IMG/VR virus record: IMGVR_UViG_3300050821_006729
Span: 1-24,977 of that record
Direction: 5' to 3' (one strand)
From: a virus
DNA length: 24,977 nt
A program made the translations under genes and the position numbers. A model generated the notes under the pieces. That model saw nothing but the letters and a program-made list of their open reading frames with translations. It ran no database searches and was not told the DNA's origin. This document shows, in pieces, positions 2,184-18,666 of this stretch (its first letter is position 1; each line of letters opens with the position of its first letter).

Positions 2184-2798
2184 TTAGGTGTGCTTGTTGT
2201 ATTGGGGATAGTTTGCCAAGCGAACCAGTTGCCTGTTGGTTTTGTAACCTACCACGCGGTAGGCAAACCACGTCTCTCGATTCTTGCCGAAAATATCCCG
2301 GTACTTGACGACGCCATACACAACGGTCATTGTATCGAGGGAGTGATGCCCTTTACCCGTAATGCTGCCAGACCATGTGGAAGGTTTTCCGGGAGCAATA
2401 GGCTCTGGTTCATTCTGAACAAGAGTGTCTGGGCCAATATATGGTTTGCTTGACAGTTTGTCTTTGTCTACGATTTCAAGACGAAGATGTTTTTCGGTAA
2501 TCCAAGCTGGACTTCGACCCTCATTGCTGCACCTGATTTCTATAGGACTCACACTAGTATTCGAGCCATCCGTTCCATCACCCAACAGAAGTCCCATGTT
2601 GGGGCCGAATACCAAATCAGCCATCACCCAAGCCCGTTCGATGTGTCTATCAGTTCCAATCTGTGTGAACACTCCAAAGAACAGGCCGATGGTGAACAGC
2701 GCAATGACCAAAGTAGAAACCGCATTCACGTAGTCAGGCCAAGGACGGGAATTGTCGGCAACAACGGCGGCCAGCAGAAGAACATTCATAGCGGCCAT
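2184..2798 (-). CDS. Membrane-anchored protein, first gene of the leftward cluster
   Basis: The 204-residue protein starts at ATG 2798 (MAAMNVLLLAAVV). CGGAG seven bases upstream supports this start; the frame continues upstream to a TTG at 2936, but that stretch has no ribosome site. One hydrophobic N-terminal segment and a second (VSTLVIALFTIGLFFGVF, about residues 28-45) precede a soluble domain of about 155 residues. The domain contains NEGRSPAW and, near the C-terminus, KYRDIFGKNRETWFAYR, the same signature as the 115-981 product. The two are probably diverged copies bracketing the operon. Proteins of this architecture are common but uncharacterised in bacteria. A role in altering the host envelope or excluding other phages is only an inference. 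Confidence 0.75.
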   Translation of the reverse strand: MAAMNVLLLAAVVADNSRPWPDYVNAVSTLVIALFTIGLFFGVFTQIGTDRHIERAWVMADLVFGPNMGLLLGDGTDGSNTSVSPIEIRCSNEGRSPAWITEKHLRLEIVDKDKLSSKPYIGPDTLVQNEPEPIAPGKPSTWSGSITGKGHHSLDTMTVVYGVVKYRDIFGKNRETWFAYRVVGYKTNRQLVRLANYPQYNKHT

Positions 2799-3133
2799 AA
2801 TTGTACTCCGGGCAAACGGAGAACCTTGTCCAGGACCAAAAACCGCTGCATTTGCATTCCTAGCCAATCCTAGCGTTCCAGGGTATTCGGCTCCAATAGC
2901 CCGTCCCCGGCTCGTTCCTGAGCCATCCCTGTGCAAAACCCAAGGTATTTAGAGCTTCGTGCCAAGGTAGAAGCCCGTCCCAGCCCGTTCTACTTAACCG
3001 CCGACTGCGCGGGCACTGCCCGCTTAGTATCTAGCCGTTGCGAGTTTTATTGGACTGGGGTTAGTCCGGGTTGCGAACCTCGGTATCGGGTGAGACACTG
3101 AAAGTAGATAGGGACCAGAGGAGAGCAACGCAG
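2799..3133. promoter_or_regulatory. Divergent intergenic region with several inverted repeats
   Basis: This separates the leftward cluster from the rightward genes, so promoters for both directions should lie here; no convincing -35/-10 pair was identified. Visible structures are GGCTC/GAGCC (2909-2924), GTAGAA/TTCTAC (2967-2993), the tight GCGGGC-act-GCCCGC hairpin (3009-3023) and GGTT-GCG-AACC (3069-3079). The left part can be read as an N-terminal extension of the leftward gene, but that lacks a ribosome site. Confidence 0.45.
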
Positions 3134-3310: not shown

Positions 3311-3337
3311 TCACTTCACAATTCTGAAACACCACTG

Positions 3338-3361
3338 GGTCAGCCTTCGGGTTGGCCTTTT
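3338..3361 (+). terminator. Intrinsic terminator with TTCG loop
   Basis: GGTCAGCC, loop TTCG, GGTTGGCC (8 bp including wobble pairs), then TTTT. It lies 28 bp after the stop of the small charged protein gene. Confidence 0.7.
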
Positions 3362-3373
3362 CTATTGACTGCC

Positions 3374-3455: not shown

Positions 3456-3674
3456 ATGGCATCACTATTTGAAGGGAAGTTAACAATAAAGACTCCGCTC
3501 GAACGGAGCAAAGAAGTGGTTGTAGCAAGACAGGCTGCACTGGCTCGATTCATTGCAACGTCTGCACAGCGACACAACAAATCCGACATGAAGGAATTGC
3601 TCGGCACGTTCTGGGAAGCATACGAAGAACTGGGAGACTACATTGAGAAGCTGGAGGAATCCAGTCGTGGCTAA
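3456..3674 (+). CDS. Small helical protein upstream of the winged-helix gene
   Basis: The 72-residue protein begins MASLFEGKLTIKTPLERSKE. It has a short N-terminal beta-like segment, then a long helical part ending in an acidic stretch (YEELGDYIEKLEESSRG). TAGGAG lies 12-13 bases before the ATG, a long spacing. The last codons overlap the GTG start of the next gene by 8 bp, so the two are probably translationally coupled and functionally linked. Its RSKEV motif also occurs in the preceding gene product. No family recognised. Confidence 0.65.
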   Translation: MASLFEGKLTIKTPLERSKEVVVARQAALARFIATSAQRHNKSDMKELLGTFWEAYEELGDYIEKLEESSRG

Positions 3675-4113
3675 GAACTTAACAGGTCATATGGCGTTGT
3701 GGGTTGCCGCCAAGGCAATCCGATGCAAGACTCTTCAAGGAAAGCTTCTCCTACTTTACTACTGCGGAAATGCAGACTCCACAGGGTACTTCTACAAATC
3801 CTACGTGGATGCTGTGATTGAGACTGGAATCTCTGAGCGCACCATAAGACGCTACAATGAGGAATGGGAAAAGCACGGATTCATGCGAACGGTTGAGCCT
3901 GCTAAGTTCTCTGGCAAGTCCACGGACTATTACCTTAGCATTCCTAAGATACAGGCATGGGCAAAAGCTAGCCCAGTCGATAAGTTGAAAGATGCTGCAC
4001 GTATCGCTGGGAAAGAACGTGTAAAGGCATGGCGTGAGAACAACCCCAGAATGACCAAAAAACCTGTATTGCAGAGGCTGCAAGATGCTATTTGTGTAAA
4101 CGGTCAAACGTAA
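3667..4113 (+). CDS. Winged-helix DNA-binding protein, probable replication initiator or iteron-binding regulator
   Basis: The 148-residue protein begins at GTG 3667 (MAKNLTGHMALWVAAKAI). GGAGGA eight bases upstream favours this over an ATG at 3643, and the start overlaps the previous stop. Residues about 23-92 look like a winged helix-turn-helix: a helix KTLQGKLLLLYYCG, then SYVDAVIETGISERTIRRYN as the recognition motif, then a wing FSGKSTDYYLSI. Such N-terminal folds occur in lambda O-type and plasmid Rep initiators and in transcriptional regulators. The C-terminal 50 residues are basic and without a recognised domain. A 22-bp iteron array begins in the last codons and runs downstream, the arrangement expected of an initiator next to its origin or of an autoregulator. 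It is shorter than full Rep proteins, so a pure repressor role remains possible. Confidence 0.75.
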   Translation: MAKNLTGHMALWVAAKAIRCKTLQGKLLLLYYCGNADSTGYFYKSYVDAVIETGISERTIRRYNEEWEKHGFMRTVEPAKFSGKSTDYYLSIPKIQAWAKASPVDKLKDAARIAGKERVKAWRENNPRMTKKPVLQRLQDAICVNGQT

Positions 4114-4183
4114 CGCTTGTAACGGTCAAATGTAACGCTCGTAACGGTCAAATGTAACAAATATGGGCGTTACATTTGACCGG
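4099..4183. repeat. 22-bp iteron array (three direct copies plus one inverted)
   Basis: Core AACGGTCAAATGTAAC. Copy 1 starts at 4099 (one base different, overlapping the stop of the winged-helix gene), copy 2 at 4121 and copy 3 at 4143, exactly 22 bp apart, i.e. two helical turns. An inverted copy (GCGTTACATTTGACCGG) occupies 4168-4183. A further direct copy lies at 4317-4334. Even spacing on one face of the helix is typical of initiator or repressor binding arrays. Confidence 0.85.
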
Positions 4184-4228
4184 CCATCAATATATAACCC
4201 ATCAACCATACATCAAAGGTTCCATCAA
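4184..4228. repeat. AT-rich CATCAA direct repeats, possible DNA-unwinding element
   Basis: CATCAA occurs at 4185, 4200, 4211 and 4223 in a stretch with TATATAA, immediately after the iterons. Iterons followed by AT-rich short direct repeats are the classic layout of an origin of replication; the same DNA could instead hold a promoter. Confidence 0.5.
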
Positions 4229-4316
4229 TTGGGCTTCGCCCGTTGGGACTACCTTCTTTTATGTGGATTGGTTGGAGGCAGGAAGAGGCTTGGCGAAAGC
4301 CCAACTTGTTCCGCCT

Positions 4317-4337
4317 GTAACGGTCAAATGTAACACC
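4317..4337 (+). repeat. Detached fifth iteron copy
   Basis: GTAACGGTCAAATGTAAC matches iteron copies 2 and 3 exactly and lies about 175 bp downstream of the array, just before the terminator at 4342. A distant site of this sort could support looping or control of the downstream genes. Confidence 0.75.
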
Positions 4338-4341
4338 AAGG

Positions 4342-4366
4342 GCTGGACCTTCGGGTTCAGCTTTTT
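4342..4366 (+). terminator. Intrinsic terminator with TTCG loop
   Basis: GCTGGACC, loop TTCG, GGTTCAGC (8 bp with one G-T pair) followed by TTTTT. It ends the iteron-containing intergenic region 19 bp before the next gene start. Confidence 0.8.
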
Positions 4367-4384: not shown

Positions 4385-4795
4385 ATGAACACGTACTTCA
4401 AGTATGCCCAGGTTGCCACGGATTTCAGCAGCCTGCAAAACAAATGCCTGCCGACAAACTTGGATGGCATAACGGAACGCAACGGACACTTCCTAGTAAT
4501 CGAATGCAAGCACGGTAATGAGCAGCCCAGCGGTGGGCAAGCGTGGATGCTGAGAGCATTCGGAGGCGTCCCAAAGTTCACTGTACTGATTGTCCACTGT
4601 GAACACGTAGAGGCTGACGAAAAAAGAACCAGACCATTCATTCCGGTCAGTTACAGCATCGTGACTGCGGATTGCATACAACTTCAGGTGCCAACGTCCA
4701 TTGAGGATTTCAGACAACGCTATCAGAAGTGGTTGGACAACTCAGAACTGGGTGCAAAGGCATTCGAGCAAGAGAGCAAGCAATGGGAAGCATAG
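4385..4795 (+). CDS. PD-(D/E)XK superfamily nuclease-like protein
   Basis: The 136-residue protein shows LDGITERNGHFLVIECKHGN: Asp27, then Glu40-Cys-Lys42 on a hydrophobic strand, followed by a Gln-containing helix (GGQAWMLRAF). This is the D-...-E-x-K signature of the restriction-endonuclease-like fold, as in VRR-NUC and phage resolvase or repair nucleases. The length suits a minimal single-domain member. CAGGAGAG precedes the ATG. The reading frame overlaps the next gene by 13 bp. In the phage context it may resolve branched DNA or trim ends; the exact substrate cannot be told. Catalytic residues are all present. Confidence 0.7.
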   Translation: MNTYFKYAQVATDFSSLQNKCLPTNLDGITERNGHFLVIECKHGNEQPSGGQAWMLRAFGGVPKFTVLIVHCEHVEADEKRTRPFIPVSYSIVTADCIQLQVPTSIEDFRQRYQKWLDNSELGAKAFEQESKQWEA

Positions 4796-5283
4796 AGCTT
4801 AACCAAGGCATCACGGTTGTCGTGGATGAGGAAGACCACCAGCAAGTGGTGGAAGCTGGCCCTTGGTTTGTTGCCACGACCAAACGCAAAGATGGGACTG
4901 TGCGTAAATCTTCAGTCGTTCGCAACACTGAGACAGGACAGCAGAAGCTGCATCACTTCATTCTGGGAATCAACGGAAAGCCCGTACATCACGACAATGG
5001 TGACCCGTTCGACTTCAGAAAGCACAACCTGACTACCGGAGCCACTGACAGGGATAGGCAGGCAGCGCGGTCCAAATCAACCGCTAGAAAATACACATCG
5101 CAGTTCAAAGGCGTGTCGTGGGACAAAGAACGAAACAAGTGGAAGGCAGACATTACCGTGAACTACAAGCTGATTCATTTGGGCCGATTCGACAGGGAAA
5201 TTGATGCAGCACGCAGGTACGACGAAGAAGCCAAGCAGAGGTTTGGTGAATTCGCACAATTAAATTTCCAACAAGCAGCGTAG
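4783..5283 (+). CDS. HNH endonuclease with C-terminal AP2 DNA-binding domain
   Basis: The 166-residue protein begins at ATG 4783 (MGSIELNQ) with AGAGAG upstream and overlaps the nuclease gene by 13 bp. Residues 55-85 carry the HNH core: LHHFILG, then VHHDNGDPFDFRKHNL, with the second His pair and the Asn that completes the motif. Residues about 107-162 form an AP2 domain: SQFKGVSWDKERNKWKA, then IHLGRFDREIDAARRYDE. HNH-AP2 proteins are known phage-borne homing endonucleases. This one is free-standing, with no intron visible, and sits directly behind another nuclease. It probably nicks DNA at a site in related phages and spreads its own gene. Confidence 0.9.
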   Translation: MGSIELNQGITVVVDEEDHQQVVEAGPWFVATTKRKDGTVRKSSVVRNTETGQQKLHHFILGINGKPVHHDNGDPFDFRKHNLTTGATDRDRQAARSKSTARKYTSQFKGVSWDKERNKWKADITVNYKLIHLGRFDREIDAARRYDEEAKQRFGEFAQLNFQQAA

Positions 5284-12277: not shown

Positions 12278-13672
12278 ATGCAGCCATATTCGCTGCTTAT
12301 CACCTCGTGTAATCGCCACGACCTTTTAGAAAAGACCATCAAATCATTTCTGAAGACAGCAGATGTGCAACCACGGCAAATAGTGATTGTCGAAGATGGT
12401 GACACACCAATGCCTGCCTTCCTCAGCAAGTACAAGCATCTCGGCCTCACATGGATTAACAACGGAACACGACGGGGACAGATTTACTCATGTGACCGTC
12501 TGTGGCAGGAATGCAAATACGACTACGCCATGTGGATGGAAGACGACTGGGTTTTCACCCAGGGAGACTTCATCACAAAGAGCTTTGAAATTTTGGAGAA
12601 GTACCCAGAGGTTGTGACCGTCACTCTTCGTGGTGACTGGAATCACCCTCTCATTGATGACAACCGCTTCCCGTTCAAGATTGCCCAGCCGAACTGGAAA
12701 GGCGCGTGGGGTGGATTCTGTTTCAACCCAGGTCTACGCAGGAAAGCCGACTACACGCGCATTGGTTCCTATGGCAAACATGTGGGCTACGGCTCTCATG
12801 GTTTGGGCCATGAGATGGACCTGAGCAAGCTCTACTCCTCTATGGGGTACGTGCTGGCAGCCCTCCCCAACCACTGTGCTCACATCGGAGGTGGACGCAG
12901 CAGGGCTATAGAGCCTTTGCTGGTACAGCCTTCAAGAGTTCTGATTGCAATCAAAGCAGGGCACGCTCTGAACTACACCAAATGGGAATCCTCAGAGAGC
13001 CCACTGTTTAACCGAACAACGGCATGGGAAGGGAAGCCGTATGGAGATGTAATCCACATCTCGACCGCTACCAATACCCGGCTCCAGGCCATAAGGGATA
13101 CGTGGTGGAGAGACTGCAAAGCCTACGCAACGCTGGATGCCAAGTTCTTTTACGGCAGACTGCCAGCGGGAATGCAGCGCACACCTGAAGAAGATGAAGT
13201 GTTCCTCCAGGTCGAAGACGATTATGAGCATTTGCCACACAAGACCGTGGCAATTTGCAAGTGGGCACGAGAACACAACTATGACTTCGTGTTCCTCTGT
13301 GACGACGACACTGGAGTTTATGTAGACCGATTGATGATTGAAGTGCAGTCATTGCCCTTCGATTATGCAGGCCACATCAATGGCGGGTCCTGTTCTGGAG
13401 GGTGCGGCTATTTCCTCTCCCGCAGAGGGATGGAAGCCGTACAAGAGTCCCCAAATTGCTGGGCAGAAGATGTGTGGATTGGGAAGTGCATGAAGTCCGC
13501 AGGCATACCGATGGTTGACCTGCCAATGCACTACCCAGGCTACGCAGACCATTACTTTTTCAAGAATGGATTCGACCCGAGCAAACTACACAACCAAATT
13601 GTAACGATGCACGCGCTACGTCCTGAAGACCTTCGGGATTGGTATGCATATGAGAAGGCGCAACAAGCCTAA
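12278..13672 (+). CDS. Two-domain glycosyltransferase (GT2-like plus GT31-like)
   Basis: The 464-residue protein starts at ATG 12278 after TAGGAGAG. Residues 1-215 look like a GT-A family 2-type transferase: SLLITSCNRHDLLEKTIKSF (5-24), IVEDGD (37-42) and the metal-binding-like MEDDW (87-91). Residues about 255-420 resemble family 31 (beta-1,3-galactosyltransferase-type) enzymes: RLQAIRDTWW (268-277), VEDDYEHLPHKT (312-323), CDDD (341-344) as DxD, and EDVWIGKC (397-404). Both halves retain their acidic metal motifs, so both may be active. It would add sugars from nucleotide-sugar donors in the cytoplasm, to virion protein, phage DNA or host glycan. It lies directly before the packaging genes, 9 bp from the small terminase. 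Confidence 0.8.
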   Translation: MQPYSLLITSCNRHDLLEKTIKSFLKTADVQPRQIVIVEDGDTPMPAFLSKYKHLGLTWINNGTRRGQIYSCDRLWQECKYDYAMWMEDDWVFTQGDFITKSFEILEKYPEVVTVTLRGDWNHPLIDDNRFPFKIAQPNWKGAWGGFCFNPGLRRKADYTRIGSYGKHVGYGSHGLGHEMDLSKLYSSMGYVLAALPNHCAHIGGGRSRAIEPLLVQPSRVLIAIKAGHALNYTKWESSESPLFNRTTAWEGKPYGDVIHISTATNTRLQAIRDTWWRDCKAYATLDAKFFYGRLPAGMQRTPEEDEVFLQVEDDYEHLPHKTVAICKWAREHNYDFVFLCDDDTGVYVDRLMIEVQSLPFDYAGHINGGSCSGGCGYFLSRRGMEAVQESPNCWAEDVWIGKCMKSAGIPMVDLPMHYPGYADHYFFKNGFDPSKLHNQIVTMHALRPEDLRDWYAYEKAQQA

Positions 13673-18310: not shown

Positions 18311-18409
18311 ATGCCTAAGTACGTTGAGCACCCAAAGACGGAAACCACCTACGTACGGAAGTGGCGTGCAACAGGAAAGACCCAGACTTCAATAGACGGA
18401 ACAACCTAA
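18311..18409 (+). pseudogene. N-terminal fragment of the endonuclease VII-like gene, out of frame
   Basis: From ATG 18311, adjacent to the previous stop, the frame reads MPKYVEHPKTETTYVRKWRA and ends at a TAA after 32 codons. This start type (short basic segment with a KWRxTGK-like motif) is what precedes the core in many phage endonuclease VII-like proteins. Reading one base back at GGAAAGACC (18373-18381) joins it to the downstream frame as RATG-KDPDFNRRNNLKY. Either a one-base loss or a -1 frameshift event fits. Confidence 0.5.
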
Positions 18410-18666
18410 AATACACTTTTGGCATGTCTCTGGAGGAGTACAACCTGCTCCACGAAAAGCAAAATGGGTTATGTGCCATCTGCCAACAACCAGAGACAGA
18501 CACTCTCCGTGGTCGTCTTAAACCTCTTTCTATTGACCATTGTCACCACACAAATAGAGTTCGTGAACTTCTCTGCGGAAAATGCAACAAGGCTCTCGGA
18601 CTATTCAAAGACAACATTCTCATACTTGAAGCTGCTATTGCGTACTTGAAAAAGCATCTTCAATGA
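18361..18666 (+). CDS. Endonuclease VII-like HNH nuclease (main frame)
   Basis: The frame opens at GTG 18361 and gives 101 residues, though the true N-terminus may be the fragment at 18311. Visible motifs are FGMSLEEYNLLHEKQ, then GLCAICQQP (CxxC), LSIDHCHHTNRVRELLCGKC with a second CxxC, and NKALGLFKDN. This is the recombination endonuclease VII domain: a zinc-stabilised His-Asn-type nuclease known from T4 gp49, which cuts branched DNA, and from many free-standing mobile nucleases. The catalytic DHCHH and all four Cys are intact. It interrupts the portal-scaffold-capsid order, as mobile nuclease genes often do. No strong ribosome site precedes the GTG. Confidence 0.8.
   Translation: MACNRKDPDFNRRNNLKYTFGMSLEEYNLLHEKQNGLCAICQQPETDTLRGRLKPLSIDHCHHTNRVRELLCGKCNKALGLFKDNILILEAAIAYLKKHLQ

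Follow-up and report, generated by a model that had tools for sequence, protein, structure and literature searches.

In phage lambda, the C-terminal half of the initiator protein O binds the loader P. The lambda origin itself contains four 18-bp iterons separated by short spacers and joined to a 38-bp AT-rich stretch, and it lies inside gene O (PMC3349717, PMC7466680). A DnaD-like N domain that binds iterons is a trait which the candidate initiator described here would share with RepA_N initiators such as PLE RepA of Vibrio cholerae; the mode of helicase recruitment of the latter is not understood, and PLE RepA, unlike the present protein, has a C-terminal domain (PMC7145576). Among known phages, the best match to the present protein is gp48 of Vibrio phage 1.110.O (MG592483; 44% identity over 48 aa). 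The two are alike in that four 21-bp iterons of the Vibrio phage are located directly behind the winged-helix (wHTH) segment, within the gene, whereas gp48 is longer (229 aa), its C-terminal half being encoded beyond the iterons, and has a DnaB-like helicase gene as its next neighbor.

We analyzed a linear, 24,977-base virus record (hereafter, the window), in which the segment 3363-4366 is, judging from its sequence, most likely a tailed-phage replicon, namely an iteron-controlled origin of the theta type together with a dedicated wHTH initiator. The features of this segment are collected in Table 1. Their anatomy gives good support to a reading as initiator plus origin, and the wHTH gene with its array belongs to the class of iteron origins that come with a dedicated winged-helix initiator, here in a version with a short protein, as also seen in two capsid-related phages, G002 and G015. 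This kind of origin is already known; what is added here is the short initiator and a new phage group. An earlier note on this DNA had proposed an initiator and an origin in the style of lambda O or a plasmid Rep. The lambda O part of that proposal, as far as origin recognition is concerned, is supported by PHROG profile matches and by an arrangement that recurs in relatives, but its extension to the whole protein is not, because only the DNA-binding half is present.

Table 1. Features in and around the candidate origin segment, with positions in the window.
Feature	Position	Strand	Remarks
Intrinsic terminator ending the preceding unit	3337-3362	+	GGGTCAGCC-TTCG-GGTTGGCCT then TTTCTATT; -14.2 kcal/mol
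72-aa ORF, no assigned function	3456-3674	+	stop overlaps start of wHTH gene (GTGGCTAA); PHROG_26865 (unknown function), E 6e-4
wHTH putative initiator gene, 148 aa	3667-4113	+	GTG start, GGAGG just upstream
Iteron 1	4097-4114	+	variant TAAACGGTCAAACGTAAC; holds stop codon of wHTH gene
Iteron 2	4119-4136	+	GTAACGGTCAAATGTAAC
Iteron 3	4141-4158	+	GTAACGGTCAAATGTAAC
Iteron 4	4169-4182	-	inverted; perfect 14-nt core CGGTCAAATGTAAC
Probable DNA unwinding element	4184-4228	+	four CATCAA repeats and TATATAA
Iteron 5	4317-4334	+	GTAACGGTCAAATGTAAC; detached
Intrinsic terminator ending the cassette	4338-4366	+	AAGGGCTGGACC-TTCG-GGTTCAGCTTTTT; -16.4 kcal/mol, z -3.7

With lambda O and ori-lambda, and with their relatives in Stx phages, the locus shares a wHTH initiator and 18-bp iterons with short spacers; as in ori-lambda, an easily melted stretch directly follows iterons and the origin starts in the initiator gene (PMC7466680, PMC3349717). 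The lambda O-type features found in the window are an N-terminal wHTH homologous to those of initiators, iterons beginning in the gene, and a low-stability stretch alongside. In contrast to lambda, the window gene ends in the first iteron, which leaves the larger part of the origin beyond the gene; one iteron is inverted and one is detached; and the iteron sequence is a different one. The P-binding C-terminal half is also lacking, and no P-, DnaC- or DnaB-type gene is found nearby in this 25-kb fragment. The locus would function in the manner of ori-lambda and O, but we do not class it as lambda O, because a loader-binding domain and a neighboring loader were sought and not found.

In the 148-aa protein, the wHTH spans about residues 20-91 and is followed by a short tail of about 55 residues, which is helical in a low-confidence structure model; single-sequence structure prediction of the whole protein was poor (pLDDT 51). 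Comparison with the PHROGs returned families 428 (E 8e-7), 270 (E 1e-4), and the O-like 391 (E 0.004), as well as 6493 and 8102. All informative matches were phage replication initiators or DnaD-type loaders, reached only via the N-terminal wHTH part of their profiles, and no known regulator family scored in the PHROG search. Alignment of the window protein by hhalign to the wHTH segments of G015, G002, and Vibrio gp48 gave E 3e-6 and a probability of 88; PHROG and hhalign scores to initiators are modest, below family grade. Searches of Pfam and NCBIfam produced nothing above cut-off, the best, sub-threshold Pfam match being the general HTH_29, and a RepA_N relationship was found neither in Pfam nor, by phmmer, among structures in the PDB. 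The only matches of a PDB sequence search were to fatty acid synthase (E 0.01), and these were judged to be due to chance. The C-terminal helicase-loading half of O-type initiators is absent from the protein, and no ORF continues its frame. Close relatives of the wHTH protein were not found in viral contigs, species genomes, plasmids, or 24 capsid-related records. The earlier note had seen no other replication gene in the window, and in agreement with it, models for three helicase and loader families (DnaB_C, AAA_25, and IstB/DnaC) matched nothing in this 25-kb linear fragment.

The 18-bp unit GTAACGGTCAAATGTAAC is present in five copies within 4097-4334, compared with 0.02 expected by chance from shuffled sequences. 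When the whole 24,977-base record was scanned with the 17-nt probe TAACGGTCAAATGTAAC, with at most three mismatches allowed, exactly five matches were obtained (4098, 4120, 4142, and 4318 on the plus strand and 4169-4185 on the minus strand); zero shuffles reached five copies, and a separate repeat search of the record gave the same iteron register. Iterons 1-3 are direct repeats at 22-bp spacing, and the stop codon TAA (4111-4113) is inside iteron 1, so that the array starts within the last codons of the gene. Both scans thereby reproduce the three direct iterons that had been described earlier, and the inverted fourth copy and the detached fifth copy reported with them were recovered as well. 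Iterons 3 and 4 together form an inverted repeat of 14 bp, free of mismatches, around a 10-nt loop; its interpretation as a terminator or RNA element was rejected because no U run follows the hairpin. No comparable repeat cluster was detected elsewhere in the window. The exact iteron was absent from other viral contigs, and versions with up to three mismatches were absent from the 24 capsid-related records.

Beside the iterons, CATCAA occurs at 4185, 4200, 4211, and 4223, with TATATAA at 4191, which confirms the repeats noted previously behind the array; a cluster of this kind was reached in 0 of 50 shuffles. The 50-mer starting at 4186 is the least stable of the array region and belongs to the 0.45% of lowest stability in the window; the AT richness of the stretch is nevertheless modest, 63% AT at best. 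From this arrangement, we infer a sequence of binding, melting, and replication: the 148-aa winged-helix protein would bind the five 18-bp iterons and wrap them into a compact nucleoprotein complex, which may strain the adjacent CATCAA/TATATAA stretch to the point of melting. Theta replication would then begin with the loading of the host's helicase, primase, and polymerase at the melted DNA.

The 72-aa ORF, the putative initiator gene, and the iteron array are bracketed by the two terminator hairpins, and the iterons are placed behind their gene, between these terminators, rather than at a promoter. No forward promoter was found at the array, where one promoter-like site was counted versus 1.3 expected, and on the minus strand a weak sigma-70-like match (4216-4189) lies next to the inverted iteron. 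Since the stop of the 72-aa ORF overlaps the GTG at 3667, translational coupling of this ORF to the wHTH gene is suggested, and its product is possibly a partner of the wHTH protein. GC skew was considered as evidence of an origin near 4,150 and was rejected, because it follows the coding strand: the skew turns at about 2,600-3,100, coinciding with the change of coding strand, and hence carries no independent information on an origin near 4,150. A control region is located approximately 1 kb to the left of the origin cassette, at 2936-3071, where coding switches from leftward to rightward and both GC and AT skew turn. To the right, a 136-aa protein (4385-4795) without a Pfam match has, by eye only, a motif like that of PD-(D/E)XK nucleases (LDGITERNGHFLVIECKHG...SGGQ), and a homing-type endonuclease of the AP2/HNH kind (4783-5283; PHROG 99, E 3e-23) adjoins the cassette. 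Rfam and tRNA scans gave no matches.

In the right part of the record, Pfam and PHROG profile matches identify genes for a terminase, an SU10-type portal, and a major capsid protein. Judged by capsid, the record is closest to 27 viral contigs, and because several of these reach 37-42 kb, it probably represents somewhat more than half of a tailed-phage genome. Tunturiibacter phage Tunturi_3 is the nearest annotated phage by capsid, with 26% identity; Tunturiibacter is a genus within the Acidobacteriota. A portal-based search for relatives added two further short contigs only. A two-domain glycosyltransferase (12278-13672 in the window), with matches in 21 of the searched loci, is found upstream of the terminase in most of the capsid-related phages, and a protein that by eye resembles an endonuclease VII-type HNH protein (18361-18666) recurs in relatives.

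Two of the capsid-related phages have short O-like initiators. G015 encodes a 169-aa protein with HTH_36 above the Pfam cut-off and initiator matches down to E 2e-16, and its gene holds three copies of AAGGGTTCAGAA plus an inverted TCTGAACCC directly behind the wHTH segment. G002 encodes a 170-aa O-like wHTH protein (E 2e-10), and the 800 bp upstream of the gene contain arrayed iterons of the GGTGGTAGCTATTTACTACC type, many of them with a spacing of 21-29 bp. Both are like the window in the size of the protein (148-170 aa across the three), in its composition of a wHTH and a short tail, in the presence of iterons in or near the gene, and in the lack of any DnaB_C, AAA_25, or IstB/DnaC match in their linear records. 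They differ in the position of the iterons, which are inside the gene in G015 and upstream of it in G002, in iteron sequence, which is unrelated to that of the window, and in protein identity, which is very low. Repeat sequences that vary between phages while the arrangement persists are as expected of initiator-origin pairs, and the repeat clusters in the wHTH genes of the compared phages exceeded 300 of 300 shuffles. Two other relatives without a wHTH protein, G008 and G017, carry an AAA_25 helicase gene instead (G017 also has a Prim-Pol domain), with clusters of inverted or direct repeats about 0.4-1.4 kb upstream of it. The wHTH and AAA_25 modules were found in 3 and 4 of 16 relatives, respectively, a mutual exclusion that is suggestive and not significant. 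The left arms of these four phages (L030 of G002, L040 of G015, L042 of G017, and L044 of G008) carry exchangeable replication modules, whereas the capsid, portal, and terminase genes are common to all. Both G002 and G017 have an integrase gene at the left end, which suggests that they are temperate.

These phages may conceivably start replication by the winged-helix protein alone, with neither a loader nor a helicase-loading domain of their own, although we hold this to be doubtful. The iteron complex would then pass the opened origin straight to the host replisome, with DnaA or a loader of the host, or else the 72-aa protein, as intermediary, by a route shorter than that of lambda O-P. Because three helicase and loader families were searched in linear records, the window and the records of G002 and G015 may still encode some other type of helicase.

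Domains of the wHTH type are common among regulators, and the protein could accordingly be a transcription regulator for which the iterons serve as operators, with no role in the start of replication. The minus-strand sigma-70-like match beside the inverted iteron and the general character of the best, sub-threshold Pfam match would suit a regulator, whereas the profile matches are to initiators and loaders, the array is downstream of the gene and ahead of a terminator without a forward promoter, and relatives carry such arrays within an initiator gene; a purely regulatory role is hence unlikely. Another explanation is that the short protein is a curtailed initiator acting as an inhibitor or copy-number control of replication, and that a full-length initiator is encoded in the part of the genome that the record lacks. 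The protein indeed consists of the DNA-binding half only and ends within the first iteron, and the record is a 25-kb linear fragment, against 37-42 kb reached by related records. However, initiators just as short are found in two related phages, whose records of 39 and 37 kb yielded no longer wHTH initiator, and the window includes the left arm, the place of the replication genes in relatives, so that we consider this explanation quite improbable.

Iteron centromeres bound by wHTH proteins occur in some phages and plasmids. By analogy, the array could be a partition centromere or an incompatibility site, with the small wHTH protein acting as adaptor (TubR/tubC-like) in plasmid-like prophage maintenance. 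Against this, no partition NTPase gene was recognized alongside in the gene list or in family scans of the neighbors, and the protein matches initiators instead; a role in partition thus has very little to recommend it. The reading as an origin with its own initiator, by comparison, would assign a complete and compact origin cassette, roughly 1 kb long and flanked by two terminators, to a group of uncultured tailed phages; among annotated phages, the closest to this group by capsid has an Acidobacteriota strain as its host. No described replication system was found for this phage group. If the 148-aa protein suffices, it would be a minimal phage initiator, and the contribution of the O-type C-terminal half would become directly testable. 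The cassette also offers a practical basis for building laboratory vectors for this host group.

Viral contigs were also searched by the iteron core, without protein information, for two cores 10-14 bp apart, and six contigs were obtained. Two of them contain ORFs of 357 aa (L059, 5587-6660) and 368 aa (L060, 8019-9125) with six ACGGTCAAA cores at 23-bp spacing. This core is identical to that of the window iteron, and in L059 the reading frame of the first core agrees with that of the final codons of the window gene (NGQT). Neither ORF matched a PHROG or Pfam family; a winged helix in their N-terminal part is a lead, unsupported by profile comparison (PHROG E 0.35, hhalign probability 0.6). 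Three contigs were treated as chance occurrences, namely L057, an ambiguous case, and, with repeats within a DNA methyltransferase gene, L058 and L062. A different viral contig of 53 kb (L061) has at 900-1380 an intergenic GGTCAAATAACG array in both orientations, near the window iteron in sequence, which is a candidate origin.
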